Positions 57,673 through 64,000 of a stretch of 64,000 nt of DNA are shown one piece after another. How positions within the stretch are numbered: the stretch's first letter is position 1; every line of letters starts with the position of its first letter. The DNA is from Micromonospora sp. AMSO31t (GTDB lineage Bacteria > Actinomycetota > Actinomycetes > Mycobacteriales > Micromonosporaceae). Location of the stretch: contig NZ_WBKT01000003.1 of assembly GCF_008868175.1 (NCBI RefSeq), positions 1 through 64,000 of the forward strand. Direction: 5' to 3'. The notes beneath the pieces were generated by a model. That model was not told where the DNA came from, did no database searches, and worked only from the letters and a program-made list of their open reading frames with translations. The position numbers were made by a program, and so were the translations under genes.

Positions 57673-59097
57673 GTGTTCGCCAATCCCGAGGAACTGCTGC
57701 GCTACCTCGCCAACGAGGACGTGAAGTTCGTCGACGTACGTTTCTGTGACCTGCCCGGCGTGATGCAGCACTTCAACCTGCCGGTGGAATCCTTCGACGA
57801 CAGCGTCTTCACCGACGGCCTGGCCTTCGACGGCTCGTCGATCCGCGGCTTCCAGACGATCCACGAGTCGGACATGCTGCTGCTTCCGGACGTCACGTCG
57901 GCGTTCGTCGACCCGTTCCGGACGCAGAAGACCGTGGCGTTGAACTTCTTCATCCACGACCCGTTCACCCGGGAGGCCTACTCCCGGGATCCCCGCAACG
58001 TGGCCAAGAAGGCCGAGGCGTTCCTCGCCGCCAGCGGCATCGCCGACACCGCCTACTTCGGCGCCGAGGCCGAGTTCTACATCTTCGACTCCATCCGCCA
58101 CGAGACCTCCGCGCACCAGTCGTTCTACTACATCGACTCCATCGAGGGCGCCTGGAACTCGGGCCGGGAAGAGGAGGGCGGCAACCGGGGTTACAAGACC
58201 GCCTACAAGGGCGGCTACTTCCCCGTCCCGCCGGTGGACCACTACGCCGACCTGCGCGACGCCATGGTCCGCCGGCTCATCGACGCCGGGTTCACGGTGG
58301 AGCGTTCGCACCACGAGGTCGGCACCGGCGGCCAGTCGGAGATCAACTACCGGTACTCCACCCTGCTGCACTCGGCCGACCAGTTGCAGCTGTTCAAGTA
58401 TCTGATCAAGAACGAGGCGTGGGCCGCCGGGAAGACGGCCACCTTCATGCCCAAGCCGCTGTTCGGGGACAACGGCTCGGGCATGCACACCCACCAGAGC
58501 CTCTGGCGGGGCGGTAAGCCGCTGTTCTACGACGAGACCGGCTACGCCGGGCTGTCCGACACCGCCCGCTGGTACATCGGCGGCCTGCTGCACCACGCGC
58601 CCTCGCTGCTGGCCTTCACCAACCCCACGGTCAACTCCTACCGGCGGCTCGTGCCCGGCTTCGAAGCCCCGGTCAACCTCGTGTACTCCCAGCGCAACCG
58701 CTCCGCCTGCACCCGCATCCCGGTGACCGGCAGCAACCCCAAGGCCAAGCGCGTCGAGTTCCGCGTCCCCGACCCGTCCAGCAACCCGTACCTCGCGTTC
58801 TCGGCGATGATGATGGCGGGCCTGGACGGCATCAAGAGCAAGACCGAGCCGCCGGCCCCGATCGACAAGGACCTCTACGACCTGCCGCCGGAGGAGTGGG
58901 GCGACGTCAAGCAGGTCCCCGGCAGCCTGCCCGCCGTCCTCGACGCGCTCGAAGCCGACCACGACTACCTGCTCGACGGCGGCGTGTTCACCCCCGACCT
59001 CATCTCCACCTGGCTCTCCTACAAGCGGACCAACGAGGTGGACCCGGTGCGCCTGCGCCCCACCCCGCACGAGTTCGCCCTGTACTTCGACTGCTGA
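57673..59097 (+). CDS. glnA: Glutamine synthetase type I
   Basis: The enzyme condenses glutamate and ammonia using ATP. All GS-I blocks are present: [36 protein letters not shown], the ATP site, [12 protein letters not shown] and the substrate site [20 protein letters not shown] holds the tyrosine usually adenylylated by GlnE. GTG at 57673 gives 474 residues, the usual length, with AGGGGG five bases upstream; the earlier in-frame GTG at 57658 would add five residues. A terminator lies upstream, so glnA is monocistronic. It converges with an amidotransferase gene. Confidence 0.95.
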
Positions 59098-59116
59098 CGG
59101 CGGCCCGCCCCCGCGT

Positions 59117-60901
59117 TCAGCGGATGCCGTGGGACTGGAGCCAGAGTTCCAGCAGGCCGAGCTGCCAGAGCTTGTTGCTGCCGGCGGCGGCCTGCGCCCG
59201 GTCCGGTTCGGCGAGCAGCTCGGCGACGTATTCGGGCCGGAACAGGCCCCGATCCCGTGCGGCCGGCGCGGCTAGGGCCTCCGTGACGAGGTGCCGCACC
59301 GGGCCGTCGACGTTGCGCAGGGCGGGCACCGGGAAGTAGCCCTTGGGCCGGTCGATCACCTCCGCGGGCAGCGCCTCCCGGGCCACCTCCTTGAGGATCC
59401 CCTTGCCGCCCTGCGCCACCTTGTGTTCCGGCGGGCAGGCGGCCGCGAGAGCGACGAGGTCCTGATCCAGGAACGGGGTGCGCACCTCCAGCCCCCACGC
59501 CATGCTCATGCTGTCCACCCGCTTCACCGGGTCGTCCGGCAGCATCAGGTGGGTGTCCAGGCGCAGCACCGCGTCGAGCGCGGTGTGCGCCCCGGGCGCG
59601 GCCAGCTGCGCGGCGAGCAGCTCACGGCTGGCGTCGTGGTCGCAGGCGTACGCCGGGTCGACCACCAGGTCCAGCTCGGCGTGGCTCCGGTCGAAGAACG
59701 CCTCGGCGAACGCCTCGGCGGCGCCGTCCCGGGGCACCTCCGTGAGGGGCTGGTGGTAGCCGTAGCCGGCGAACACCTCGTCGGCGCCCTGGCCGGACTG
59801 CGCCACCTTGACGTGCCGGGCCACCTGTTCGGAGAGCAGGTGGAAGGCGACCACGTCGTGGCTGCCCATCGGCTCGGTCATCGCCAGGATCGTCCGCCGG
59901 ACCGCCGGCTCCAGGTCGTCGTTCGAGAGCTGGATGCGGTGGTGGTCGGTGCCGAAGGCACGGGCGACCAGATCGGAGTAGTGGAACTCGTCGCCGCTCT
60001 CGCCGCCCCGGCTGTCGAAGCCGATGCTGAACGTCTGCAGGTGGTGCTGCCCGGCCTCGGCGAGCAGGGCCACGATCATGCTGGAGTCCAGCCCGCCGGA
60101 GAGCAGCACCCCGACCGGCACGTCGGCCATGAGCCGCCGCCGCACCGCCGTGCGCAGCGCGTCGCCGACCGCGGCCTGCCAGTCCCGCGCGTCCATGCCG
60201 GCGTGCGCCGGGTCCCGCTGGTAGTCGGGCCGCCAGTAGACGCGCTCGCGGCTGCGCCCGTCGGCCTCCACCACCCGCACGGTGGCCGGCGGCAGCTTGC
60301 GTATCCCCCGCAGGACGGTCCGGGGCGCCGGCACGATCGAGTGCCAGGACAGGTAGTGGTGCAGCGCCACCGGGTCGATGCCGGTGTCGACGTCGCCGGC
60401 CGCCAGCAGCGCCGGCAGGGTGGAGGCGAACCGCAGCCGCCCCGGGGACTCGGCGAGGTAGAGGGGCTTGATGCCGAGCCGGTCCCGAGCCAGCACGAGC
60501 CGGCGCCGCTCCCGGTCGACCAGCACGACCGCGAACATCCCGACGAGGTGGTGGACGAACTCCTCACCCCATTCCGCGTACGCCACGAGGATGACCTCGG
60601 TGTCGCTGGTGGAGTGGAAGGTGTGCCCGGCGCTGCGCAGTTCGTCGCGGAGCTGCGGGTAGTTGTAGACGCACCCGTTGAACACCAGCGCCAGGCCCAG
60701 ATCCTCCCGGACCATCGGCTGGGCCCCCGCATCGGACAGATCGATGATGGTCAGCCGGCGGTGGCCGAGGGTGATCCACCCGTCGTTCCACAGGCCCTCC
60801 CCGTCGGGCCCCCGGGATCGCATCGCCTCGCTCATCCGGGTCACCGCGTGGCCGTCCGGCACGGATCCGTCGAATCGGGCCTCCCCGCTGATCCCACACA
60901 T
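59117..60901 (-). CDS. Asparagine-synthase-family amidotransferase (possibly N-acetylglutaminylglutamine amidotransferase)
   Basis: The 594-residue protein has a class II glutaminase domain with catalytic Cys2 (MCGISGE), SRGPDGEG and NGCVYNYPQLRDEL, and a synthetase domain with the ATP-pyrophosphatase motif LLSGGLDSSMIV (near residue 260). The sequence GHRRLTIIDLSDAGAQPMV and ARDRLGIKPLYLAE are closest, from memory, to the NAGGN (osmoprotectant dipeptide) amidotransferase group rather than housekeeping AsnB. The other genes of that trio are not nearby. Next to glnA it could also be a plain asparagine synthetase. The ATG is on the minus strand, and the upstream 276-base region is shared with a divergent catalase-like gene. 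Confidence 0.82.
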   Translation of the reverse strand: MCGISGEARFDGSVPDGHAVTRMSEAMRSRGPDGEGLWNDGWITLGHRRLTIIDLSDAGAQPMVREDLGLALVFNGCVYNYPQLRDELRSAGHTFHSTSDTEVILVAYAEWGEEFVHHLVGMFAVVLVDRERRRLVLARDRLGIKPLYLAESPGRLRFASTLPALLAAGDVDTGIDPVALHHYLSWHSIVPAPRTVLRGIRKLPPATVRVVEADGRSRERVYWRPDYQRDPAHAGMDARDWQAAVGDALRTAVRRRLMADVPVGVLLSGGLDSSMIVALLAEAGQHHLQTFSIGFDSRGGESGDEFHYSDLVARAFGTDHHRIQLSNDDLEPAVRRTILAMTEPMGSHDVVAFHLLSEQVARHVKVAQSGQGADEVFAGYGYHQPLTEVPRDGAAEAFAEAFFDRSHAELDLVVDPAYACDHDASRELLAAQLAAPGAHTALDAVLRLDTHLMLPDDPVKRVDSMSMAWGLEVRTPFLDQDLVALAAACPPEHKVAQGGKGILKEVAREALPAEVIDRPKGYFPVPALRNVDGPVRHLVTEALAAPAARDRGLFRPEYVAELLAEPDRAQAAAGSNKLWQLGLLELWLQSHGIR

Positions 60902-61177
60902 CCTCAGGGCACCCCCTCTGGCCTGCCGGTAGACACGAACATCGCTTGCCCGTCACCGCCGGACCGGTGGCACGGCCCATGAGAGGCCGCGACTACCCGC
61001 TGCGCGGGTGACGAAACGGGCTCCGAAGGGTGACGCCGGCTTCGTGTGTCACCCCCCTCGGCCGGCTCCCGCTGGGCCCATAGAGGTCATGGGTCGGCAC
61101 ACCGGCGGGCCACCGGGCCGGGAATGGGAGGAGACGTCGACCAAGAACCACTCGTGAACGACTGATCGGAGAAGATC
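60902..61177. other. Divergent promoter region with repeated GGGTGAC boxes
   Basis: It lies between the amidotransferase gene (minus) and the catalase/arsenate-reductase-like gene (plus). GGGTGACG occurs at 61006-61013 and 61028-61035, 22 bases apart, and inverted as TGTCACCC at 61047-61054. No coding sequence is apparent. Confidence 0.45.
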
Positions 61178-61672
61178 GTGTTCCGCCACGACCGCCACTT
61201 GCAGTTCCAGGCCGAGCCCGAGAAGCCCGACGCGCCGTTCGCGATGAAGTTGCAGGAGGTACTCGGGGGCCAGTTCGGCGAGATGACCGTGATGATGCAG
61301 TACCTGTGGCAGGGCTGGACCTGCCGGGTTCCCGGCAAGTACAAGGACATGATCATGGACATCGGGACCGAGGAGATCGGTCACGTCGAGATGCTCACCA
61401 CCATGCTCGCCCGGCTCCTCGAGGGCGCCCCCGCCGAGACCACCGAGAAGGCTGTCACCGACCGCACCCCGGCCCGGCTCACCTGGGACGCGGCCGAGGC
61501 CAGCGACGTCATCGTCACCGTGGGCGGCGGCGACGCCTGCCCCGTCTTCCCGAGCAAGCGGCACGAGGACTGGGCGCTCACCGATCCGGCCGAGCAGTCC
61601 CTCCCCGTCGTCCGGCGCGTCCGTGACGACATCCGCGCCCGGGTCGAGAAACTCGTCGACGGCCTCCGGTAG
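61178..61672 (+). CDS. Chimeric protein: N-terminal half of manganese catalase fused to C-terminal half of LMW-PTP arsenate reductase
   Basis: The 164-residue frame starts as a typical Mn catalase: MFRH...LQFQAEPEKPDAPFA, KLQEVLGGQFGEMTV, PGKYKDMIMDIGTEEIGHVEML and ARLLEGAPAETT. Ligands E35, E66 and H69 of the dimanganese site are in the expected places. From about residue 94 it reads as the C-terminal half of a thioredoxin-coupled arsenate reductase (DRTPARLTWDAAEASDVIVTVGGGDACPVFP, KRHEDWALTDPAEQ, RVRDDIRARV). The catalase half lacks the second glutamate and histidine (148 and 181 in L. plantarum numbering), and the reductase half lacks its P-loop cysteine and has G in place of the first Cys of MGCGDACP. 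It is in frame with GGAGAAG before the GTG. It is likely non-functional for both parent activities, and may be a deletion fusion of adjacent genes. Confidence 0.8.
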   Translation: MFRHDRHLQFQAEPEKPDAPFAMKLQEVLGGQFGEMTVMMQYLWQGWTCRVPGKYKDMIMDIGTEEIGHVEMLTTMLARLLEGAPAETTEKAVTDRTPARLTWDAAEASDVIVTVGGGDACPVFPSKRHEDWALTDPAEQSLPVVRRVRDDIRARVEKLVDGLR

Positions 61673-61803: not shown

Positions 61804-62220
61804 ATGAGCGATGACATCGAGGCGTTCTTCGTGGCGCTACCGGCGCGGGGGCGGGCCCTGCTGCCACCGCGCGTGCGCGGGACGCTGCGCGTGGACCTGG
61901 TGACCCACGACTCGACCCGCCACTGGTACGTCGACCTCCGCGCGCCGGGCCGGGTGCTCGTGAACCGGGACGTCCGGGCGGCCGACGCCGTGCTGACGAC
62001 GACGCCCGCCGTCTTCGCCCGGCTGGTGCGGGGCGAGTCCCCCGCCACGGCCGTGCTGCTGCGCAACGAGGCCACCCTGGTCGGCGACGCCCGACTGATC
62101 CTGGCGTTCCGGCGCTACTTCCCGCAACCGCACGGCACCGGCGATCCGCGGGAGGGTGCGCAGCGGCGGGCTCCCCACGGGCAGGCGTGGCGCGAGCGCC
62201 TGCGGGCCCGGACGGGGTGA
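61804..62220 (+). CDS. SCP2 sterol-binding-domain protein
   Basis: The 138-residue protein is mostly a SCP2-like lipid-binding domain: VRGTLRVDLVTHDSTRHWYVDL, GRVLVNRDVRAADAVLTTTPAVFARLVRGE and LLRNEATLVGDARLILAFRRYFP. Such domains bind hydrophobic ligands. The ATG at 61804 has GGGGGCAGG just upstream and TAGGCT at 61778-61783 as a possible -10. It ends four bases before the ATG of the debranching enzyme, so they are cotranscribed. The link between lipid binding and glycan hydrolysis is not clear. Confidence 0.8.
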   Translation: MSDDIEAFFVALPARGRALLPPRVRGTLRVDLVTHDSTRHWYVDLRAPGRVLVNRDVRAADAVLTTTPAVFARLVRGESPATAVLLRNEATLVGDARLILAFRRYFPQPHGTGDPREGAQRRAPHGQAWRERLRARTG

Positions 62221-62224
62221 CCGG

Positions 62225-64000
62225 ATGGCGATGCGGAAGTCGATCAACATCCTGGACGGGAACACGTTCCTGGTCTGCGACGACCGTGGCGACGTGGACC
62301 CGTCGCCCAGCGTGCCGACCGGGCTGTTCTCCTACGACACCCGCTTCCTGTCCACCTGGCGGTTGAGCGTGAACGGTGAACGGCTGCACGCGTTGTCGGT
62401 GGACGACATCCGCTACTTCGAGAGCCGCTTCTTCCTGGTGCCGGGCGAACCGACCCACTACGTCGACGCGACGGTGTCGGTGATCCGCGACCGCAGCATC
62501 GGCGGCAGCTTCACCGAGAACCTCGCGGTGCTCAACCACACCGACGAGGAGACGACCCTGACGGTACGCGTCGACATGGCCTCCGACTTCGCCGACATCT
62601 TCGAGATCAAGAACCCGCAGGGCAAGAAGGCGCCGGTCCAGGCGATCGTCGAGGAGGGACAGCTGCGGCTGCGCTACCGGCGGGACAGCTTCCACCGCGA
62701 GACCGTGATCTCCAGCTCGGCACCCGCCCGGGTCGACCCGGAGGGCATGACGTTCGAGGTGCGCGTACCGCCGCAGTCGGAGTGGCAGACCCGGTTGCAC
62801 GTACGCACGCTCGTGCTGGGCGCACACGAGCGCGACTTCCGCGACAGCCTTGAGCTGCGCCAGGCCCGGTCCCCGGCCGAGCTGGACGAGCAGCTGCGGC
62901 AGTGGACGGCGGCCGCACCCCGGCTGAAGTGCGACAGCCCGTCCATCACCACCGCCTACCGGCGGAGCCTGGTGGACCTGGCCGCGCTGCGCTACACCTC
63001 CATCACGATGGCCGAGGAACTGGTCGCCGCCGGGCTGCCGTGGTTCATGACCGTGTTCGGCCGGGACAGCATCTTCACCTGCCTGCAGGCCCTGCCGTTC
63101 ACCCCGCAGCTCGTGCCCGCCACCCTCGGCACGCTCGCCTACGGCCAGGGCAGCCGCCTCGACGACTTCCGCGACGAGGAGCCCGGCAAGATCCTGCACG
63201 AGCTGCGCTACGGCGAGTCCGCCGGATTCGAAGAACAGCCCCACTCGCCGTACTACGGCGCCGCCGACACCACTCCCCTGTTCGTCATCCTGCTCGACGA
63301 GTACGAACGCTGGACCGGCGACAGCGCCGTGGTGCGCGCCTACGAGTTCGAGGCCCGGGCCGCGCTCGACTGGATCGACAACTACGGCGACCTGCTCGGC
63401 ACCGGCTACATCTGGTACGAGACCCGCAACCGCGACAACGGTCTGGTCAACCACTGCTGGAAGGACTCCCCGGACTCGATCTGCTACCGCGACGGGCGCC
63501 TGCCCCCGTTTCCCCGTGCGACCTGCGAACAGCAGGGCTACGCCTACGATGCCAAGATCCGGGGCGCCCGGCTGGCCCGCCTGTTCTGGAACGACCCCGC
63601 CTACGCCGACCGCCTCGAACGTGAGGCCGCCGACCTGAAGGCCCGGTTCAACGAGGACTTCTGGATCGCCGACGGCGAGTACTACGCCCTCGCGTTGGAC
63701 GCCGAGGGAGGCCAGGTCGACGCGCTGTCCTCGAACATCGGGCACCTGCTGTGGAGCGGCATCGTCGAGGAGTCTCGGGCCGGTCGCATCGCCGAACTGC
63801 TGCTCAGCGACCGGCTCTTCTCCGGCTGGGGCGTGCGCACCCTCGCCACCGACTGCGCCCGCTACAACCCGCTCGGCTACCACGTGGGCACCGTGTGGCC
63901 CTTCGACAACTCGATCATCGCCTGGGGGCTCTGGCGCTACGGCTACCGCCGCGAGGCCGCCACCATCTGCCAGGCCGTCTTCGACGCCGCCGACTACTTC
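62225..64000 (+). CDS. Amylo-alpha-1,6-glucosidase / glycogen-debranching-type enzyme (3' end beyond window)
   Basis: The frame runs open from the ATG at 62225 to the last base of the window (592 codons seen). Residues 5-205 match the N-terminal beta-domain of glycogen-debranching enzymes (LDGNTFLVCDDRGDV, PTGLFSYDTRFLS, ESRFFLVPGEPTHYVDATV). From about 235 it is an (alpha/alpha)6 barrel of the MGH1/GDE_C type: GLPWFMTVFGRDSIFTCLQALPF, PGKILHELRYGE, SPYYGAADTTPLFVILLDEY, CWKDSPDSICY, EQQGYAYDAKI and VGTVWPFDNSIIAWGL. GRDS carries a conserved acidic residue. The exact substrate (glycogen, trehalose-like or mannosyl glycan) is not settled. It starts four bases after the SCP2 gene. Confidence 0.85.
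   Translation, partial: MAMRKSINILDGNTFLVCDDRGDVDPSPSVPTGLFSYDTRFLSTWRLSVNGERLHALSVDDIRYFESRFFLVPGEPTHYVDATVSVIRDRSIGGSFTENLAVLNHTDEETTLTVRVDMASDFADIFEIKNPQGKKAPVQAIVEEGQLRLRYRRDSFHRETVISSSAPARVDPEGMTFEVRVPPQSEWQTRLHVRTLVLGAHERDFRDSLELRQARSPAELDEQLRQWTAAAPRLKCDSPSITTAYRRSLVDLAALRYTSITMAEELVAAGLPWFMTVFGRDSIFTCLQALPFTPQLVPATLGTLAYGQGSRLDDFRDEEPGKILHELRYGESAGFEEQPHSPYYGAADTTPLFVILLDEYERWTGDSAVVRAYEFEARAALDWIDNYGDLLGTGYIWYETRNRDNGLVNHCWKDSPDSICYRDGRLPPFPRATCEQQGYAYDAKIRGARLARLFWNDPAYADRLEREAADLKARFNEDFWIADGEYYALALDAEGGQVDALSSNIGHLLWSGIVEESRAGRIAELLLSDRLFSGWGVRTLATDCARYNPLGYHVGTVWPFDNSIIAWGLWRYGYRREAATICQAVFDAADYF

Follow-up and report, generated by a model that had tools for sequence, protein, structure and literature searches.

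A probable fusion pseudogene of manganese catalase and arsenate reductase genes in a variable cargo slot of Micromonospora sp. AMSO31t

Introduction

The locus described here draws on two known protein families, the manganese catalases (katM; PF05067, NF052557) and the LMW-PTP-type arsenate reductases as found in actinobacteria (arsC; NF010053, TIGR02691), for which PDB 3t38 is the closest solved structure. In the manganese catalases, we take residues E150 and H183 to be the second ligand pair of the dimanganese site, and in the arsenate reductases the later cysteines of the motif TMGCGDxCP presumably act as the redox relay. Chimeric pseudogenes born by deletion or insertion are known in bacteria. 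A further system of relevance is the encapsulated ferritin EncFtn, whose iron site is reported to be built from two chains that each give Glu32, Glu62 and His65 (PMC5012862).

Here we analyse the first 64,000 nucleotides of contig NZ_WBKT01000003.1 of Micromonospora sp. AMSO31t (hereafter the window; positions refer to its forward strand). An initial annotation, made from the letters of this DNA, had pointed to an open reading frame combining parts of katM and arsC, and had offered two explanations, namely a fusion by deletion between adjacent genes or a new small metalloprotein with half of a dimetal site. We compared the locus with related genomes, and posit with a probability of roughly 0.84 that the chimera is a fusion pseudogene, which was born by rearrangement in a variable cargo slot.

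Results

The open reading frame at positions 61,178 to 61,672 of the forward strand starts with GTG and encodes 164 amino acids without any internal stop. It is an in-frame chimera, in which residues 1-93 correspond to the 5' part of katM (61,178-61,456, forward strand, codons 1-93) and residues 94-164 to the 3' half of arsC (61,457-61,672, forward strand). The Pfam profile Mn_catalase (PF05067) matches residues 2-96 with an E-value of 9.7e-40 and 136.8 bits (cut-off 27), covering profile positions 2-96 of 284. The C-terminal part reaches 15.3 bits against LMWPc (PF01451) and stays under the cut-off of 23.2, as expected where only half a domain is present. The best match for this part among the solved chains is the arsenate reductase 3t38 (residues 93-159, E-value 1.4e-11), and the arsenate reductases 1rxe and 1jf8 match it with E-values of about 1e-5. 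The chimera scores 175.1 bits against the catalase equivalog ManCatBAC (NF052557), below the cut-off of 350 bits that an intact relative exceeds with 403.5; the intact ArsC of the related genome G032 is likewise under the NCBIfam equivalog cut-offs.

Both active sites are incomplete. Of the dimanganese ligand set, the chimera keeps E35, E66 and H69 only, which align with the same three residues of PDB 1jku and 1o9i. E150 and H183, which are invariant in 26 homologues, would lie beyond the join, and the second half of the catalase metal site is therefore absent. On the arsC side, the P-loop CVHNAGR that was read in all 19 intact ArsC is missing, leaving the chimera without the N-terminal CX5R nucleophile. 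Furthermore, the TMGCGDxCP motif of intact ArsC reads TVGGGDACP, with the first cysteine changed to glycine and the second cysteine kept. Judged from these residues, the chimera is predicted to be unable to function as either a manganese catalase or an arsenate reductase.

A GGAG stretch is located upstream of the GTG start, and the sequence GATCGGAGAA is common to two of the four katM relatives aligned. The chimera may possibly still be translated from this katM ribosome-binding site. A sigma-70 scan found no promoter-like site, which says little for an actinobacterium. The initial annotation had described an in-frame chimera without frameshift, the assignment of residues 1-93 to a manganese catalase with E35, E66 and H69 in place and of residues 94-164 to the C-terminal half of an LMW-PTP arsenate reductase, two incomplete active sites and a ribosome-binding site, and these observations are borne out here.

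The two parental sequences meet at positions 61,455-61,456 (forward strand), where the dinucleotide TC is common to several katM relatives and to all six arsC parents shown. The join is sharp, with an overlap of 2 bp and without long homology between the parents. Comparing the locus in blocks of 30 bases with 8 of the 11 other katM copies and with 6 arsC parents, the best identity per block is 26-30 of 30 for katM up to position 61,447, and again 26-30 of 30 for arsC from 61,478 on, which excludes chance resemblance. In DNA searches of 160 genomes of the genus, including its own, 11 high-identity katM matches stop at 61,455-61,460, and most strong arsC matches start at 61,455. That the reading frame is open across the join is due to chance, at about 1 in 3.

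To the left, the chimera is flanked by a gene on the reverse strand (59,117-60,901) that we take to be an asparagine synthase gene (asnB-like). To its right follow, on the forward strand, genes that likewise appear to encode an SCP2-like protein (61,804-62,220) and an amylo-alpha-1,6-glucosidase-like protein (AGL; 62,225-64,000, continuing past the window end). All three are collinear in the related genomes G032 and G021, with amino acid identities of 94-96% for the asnB-like gene and 96-97% for AGL. At the nucleotide level, G032 is collinear with positions 58,696-61,044 (91.9%) and 61,455-64,268 (91.5%), and its homology on the right restarts inside its intact arsC. The slot of G032 comprises about 1.9 kb with cadI on the reverse strand and arsR, an aquaporin gene (aqp) and a full arsC on the forward strand. 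G021 is nearer to the window than G032 at the flanks (92.8-94.5% identity). In G021, the slot encodes a regulator of the ArsR family (86.5 bits, cut-off 55) together with a CDF-like transporter, the latter scoring 42.8 bits and thus staying under its cut-off of 82.35; katM and arsC are both absent. The slot between the asnB-like and SCP2-like genes is variable and its cargo is metal- or stress-related.

The three related genomes carry, in the same place, an ars cluster, an ArsR-family regulator with a CDF-like transporter, and the chimera. In the window, the left flank common to G032 is separated from the katM-like part by a forward-strand stretch (61,045-61,157), for which only short matches were obtained in 9 of the 159 other genomes of the genus, the best one covering 67 query bases at 79%. 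Past the window end, positions 65,156-67,808 of the contig (C3) contain FAD-oxidoreductase-like and LysR-like genes. By blastn, this region matches nothing in the G032 locus and is matched only in part in G021, suggesting that the downstream region is variable too.

The arsC half is the orthologue of the arsC found in the same slot of G032, as residues 93-164 of the chimera share 79% identity with the C-terminal half of that ArsC. Its synonymous divergence from G032 (dS 0.228) equals that of the flanking genes (asnB 0.227, AGL 0.207, SCP2 0.242). Together with the synteny, this indicates that the arsC half is a local arsC that was inherited and truncated in place. The corresponding dN is 0.101 for the arsC half, compared with 0.021 for AGL, 0.029 for asnB and 0.061 for SCP2.

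In DNA, the katM half shows 92% identity to its best relatives, and at the protein level residues 1-93 share 95-97% identity with seven katM copies from Micromonospora. Copies of the same katM type, with at least 87% identity in DNA, were found in 11 other genomes, which makes 12 of 160 including its own. The dS of the katM half to the nearest copy is about 0.34 and exceeds the divergence of the flanks from G032. The surroundings of eight same-type katM loci, inspected in stretches of 13-20 kb, differ from those in the window; glnA is nearby in two of them, and one carries the HelR-like helicase gene of the window. The katM half probably came from outside the slot.

Eight of the 12 same-type katM copies read through as 305 amino acids, and the copy of genome G112 gives a single unbroken alignment of 305 residues. 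The copy of M. globbae (L038/L159) is broken by a 1-nt deletion at codon 96 and that of M. cabrerizensis (L036/L160) by the loss of an internal segment, which starts at codon 107 and ends at about codon 269, so that, with the window, 3 of 12 copies are broken at codons 93, 96 and 107, within about 14 codons. For three random breaks in 305 codons to fall that close, the probability is 0.006. We do not build on a katM break hot spot, because this figure was obtained post hoc and the events differ in kind (a join to arsC, a 1-nt deletion and an internal deletion). Outside the genus, plasmid pR8L1 of Rhodococcus sp. 008 (L221) holds a manganese catalase frame for which the PLSDB gene table has no CDS and which reaches a stop after about 264 residues.

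Selection was assessed separately for the two halves. Over the first 66 of the 69 codons of the arsC half, the changes unique to the chimera are 6 nonsynonymous to 0 synonymous, against a pooled 11:11 in 19 intact homologues (one-sided Fisher p 0.033, with small numbers). These homologues are the distinct intact copies kept from 21 given loci, L003 and L166 being the same and L141 being left out. Five of the changes affect residues that are invariant in 19 of 19 intact homologues, one of them a conserved cysteine, namely M and C of TMGCGD, G and Y of PGKRYEDW and G of DPAGQ, while intact copies show at most two changes each at otherwise invariant residues. The signal of decay is moderate, since the same test run with 10 intact copies gave 7:1 versus 10:10 and the pairwise omega of the arsC half (0.214-0.504) overlaps that of intact copies (median 0.270, maximum 0.513). 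Relative to G032, omega is 0.444 for the arsC half, 0.101 for AGL, 0.128 for asnB and 0.250 for SCP2. The flanking SCP2 gene reaches 0.603 against G021, and a high omega is therefore no proof of decay by itself. The arsC half thus appears to decay.

In the katM half, no clear decay is visible by omega against its relatives (0.035-0.083, compared with a median of 0.047 and a maximum of 0.103 for the other copies). L20P is the sole unique nucleotide change, and E13 is also unusual, being K or R elsewhere. The low omega of this half mostly records the history before the join.

A complete second cadI / arsR-aqp-arsC cluster is located on contig C32 of the same genome, and contig C42 contains another full manganese catalase, which is 56% identical to that of M. 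noduli. With these intact genes remaining, the cell loses little. A detached C-terminus of the same katM type or an arsC N-terminal half was not found elsewhere in the assembly.

No match crosses the join among those listed for the 159 other genomes of the genus, and none of the 80 loci kept from 401 relatives matches past residue 123 of the chimera. Likewise, among the 10 matches listed from 398 plasmid records, the only one with at least 80% query cover is an ordinary manganese catalase without an arsC part. In protein searches, katM matches extend beyond residue 93 up to residue 125, as in ordinary katM. A conserved fusion family is ruled out by the lack of crossing matches among those listed for the genus, the relatives and the plasmids. 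A search with CadI, ArsR, aquaporin and ArsC of G032 (tblastn, E-value 1e-6) against 88 katM loci with flanks of at most 5-10 kb (81 distinct, seven being duplicated as named and unnamed records) gave zero matches, which rules out a conserved katM-ars neighbourhood. No genome examined carried katM next to an intact ars cluster, as an intermediate would, and a literature search for fusions of manganese catalase and arsenate reductase found nothing related.

Structure models were calculated with AlphaFold2 for the chimera and for an intact relative. The chimera model, with 27 aligned sequences that were relatives of the katM half only, has a mean pLDDT of 42, a pTM of 0.24 and no strands, whereas that of the intact relative, with 26 sequences, reaches 59.7 and 0.55, although its five models are uneven (59.7 to 37.1). 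In blocks of ten residues, the pLDDT of the intact relative is 54-84 from residue 11 to 100, compared with 46-55 up to residue 90 and 33 for residues 91-100 in the chimera. As the chimera model had relatives of the katM half only, its low pLDDT is weak evidence, and it weakly suggests that the fragment may lack a stable fold. In the model of the intact relative, helices span residues 19-44 and 54-80, placing the Glu and ExxH half-site (E35, E66, H69) on a predicted two-helix hairpin.

Discussion

The chimera most probably arose by rearrangement within the slot. In an ancestor shared with G032, the slot carried the cadI / arsR-aqp-arsC cluster, as synteny and equal dS show, and the intact ancestral arsC is indeed found at the same place in G032, while katM is not. 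Since katM does not normally have ars genes as neighbours, the slot must first have received katM, either as a gene or as its 5' piece, presumably in the lineage of the window. An illegitimate join with 2 shared bp would have tied katM codon 93 to the codon following arsC codon 61. In the end state seen today, cadI, arsR, the aquaporin gene, the P-loop half of arsC and the C-terminal two thirds of katM are gone from the slot; the order of these events is our inference. The suggested deletion between adjacent genes is thus upheld in that a local arsC was cut at the join, as seen from synteny and dS, but the adjacency of the two genes is not, given 0 of 88 katM loci with ars genes. The initial annotation had also envisaged intact adjacent genes in other species with a fusion in this one assembly only: the fusion was seen in this assembly only and intact genes exist elsewhere, but they lie separately.

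Could the draft assembly have joined katM and arsC falsely? The genome comes in 377 contigs, the join is known from the assembled sequence alone and the chimera from this one genome. However, collinearity with G032 and G021 holds to the left and to the right of the slot, so that an artefact would require two false joins within about 410 bases. Moreover, the missing partners, a katM C-terminus of the same type and an arsC N-half, are absent from the rest of the assembly, and the arsC half bears substitutions of its own, which makes an artefact improbable. It is hard to believe that the fusion formed elsewhere and came whole by horizontal transfer, as the arsC half and the flanks have diverged equally from G032 in dS, and the homology with that genome extends past the arsC half into the flanking sequence on the right, as fits truncation in place; the patchy occurrence of this katM type (12 of 160 genomes) and the variable slot are what speaks for such a transfer.

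The chimera could also be read as a functional new protein with the arsC half as a tail. Its catalase hairpin would then pair with that of a second chain to form a four-helix bundle around a symmetric dimetal site, comparable to encapsulated ferritin. E35, E66, H69 and the 35 invariant catalase columns of this half are kept save for L20P and E13, the frame and the GGAG stretch are preserved, the omega of the katM half is low, and in EncFtn two chains are reported to share the iron site (PMC5012862). The nearly intact catalase half thus keeps some room for this reading. The low omega, however, mainly reflects the time before the join, the chimera is known from a single genome, and five residues that are invariant in 19 intact copies have been lost from its arsC half. 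The poor model of the chimera (pLDDT and pTM below those of the intact relative) also counts against it, albeit weakly because the alignment covered the katM half only. We consider a functional protein very unlikely. The metalloprotein with half a dimetal site proposed in the initial annotation is therefore not supported, with no second example, lost invariant residues and a low, weakly informative pLDDT of 42.

The fusion pseudogene that we favour resembles known chimeric pseudogenes of bacteria in its minimal shared sequence at the join, in combining parts of two genes and in the intact paralogues present elsewhere, perhaps also in relaxed selection on its arsC half, and differs in that its frame happens to remain open over the join. 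Compared with the manganese catalases, it keeps 93 of 305 residues and lacks the second ligand pair. The arsenate reductases are matched by residues 93-164, but the P-loop with its CX5R motif is missing, only one of the later cysteines is left of two, and five otherwise invariant residues are changed. The likeness to EncFtn is one of residues and spacing, in that both have a half-site of Glu and Glu-x-x-His on a unit of two helices (32/62/65 in EncFtn, 35/66/69 in the chimera); unlike the chimera, EncFtn forms a family of its own, with a decamer that sits inside encapsulins.

As a long shot suggested by these residues, the catalase hairpin with its arsC-derived tail might be a newborn two-helix metalloprotein that dimerises to build a symmetric dimetal site, reversing the proposed duplication route to ferritin-like four-helix bundles. 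Comparable hairpins might be made in M. globbae and M. cabrerizensis, whose copies of this katM type are broken at nearby codons. A functional hairpin would provide a natural experiment on four-helix dimetal proteins versus two-helix half-site proteins. For the far more probable fusion pseudogene, the locus calls for caution, as an in-frame open reading frame that has a ribosome-binding stretch and matches two domains cleanly may yet be a remnant, and comparison with near relatives quickly exposes such remnants. The chimera also reveals a small variable slot between the asnB-like and SCP2-like genes, which carries differing metal- or stress-related genes.
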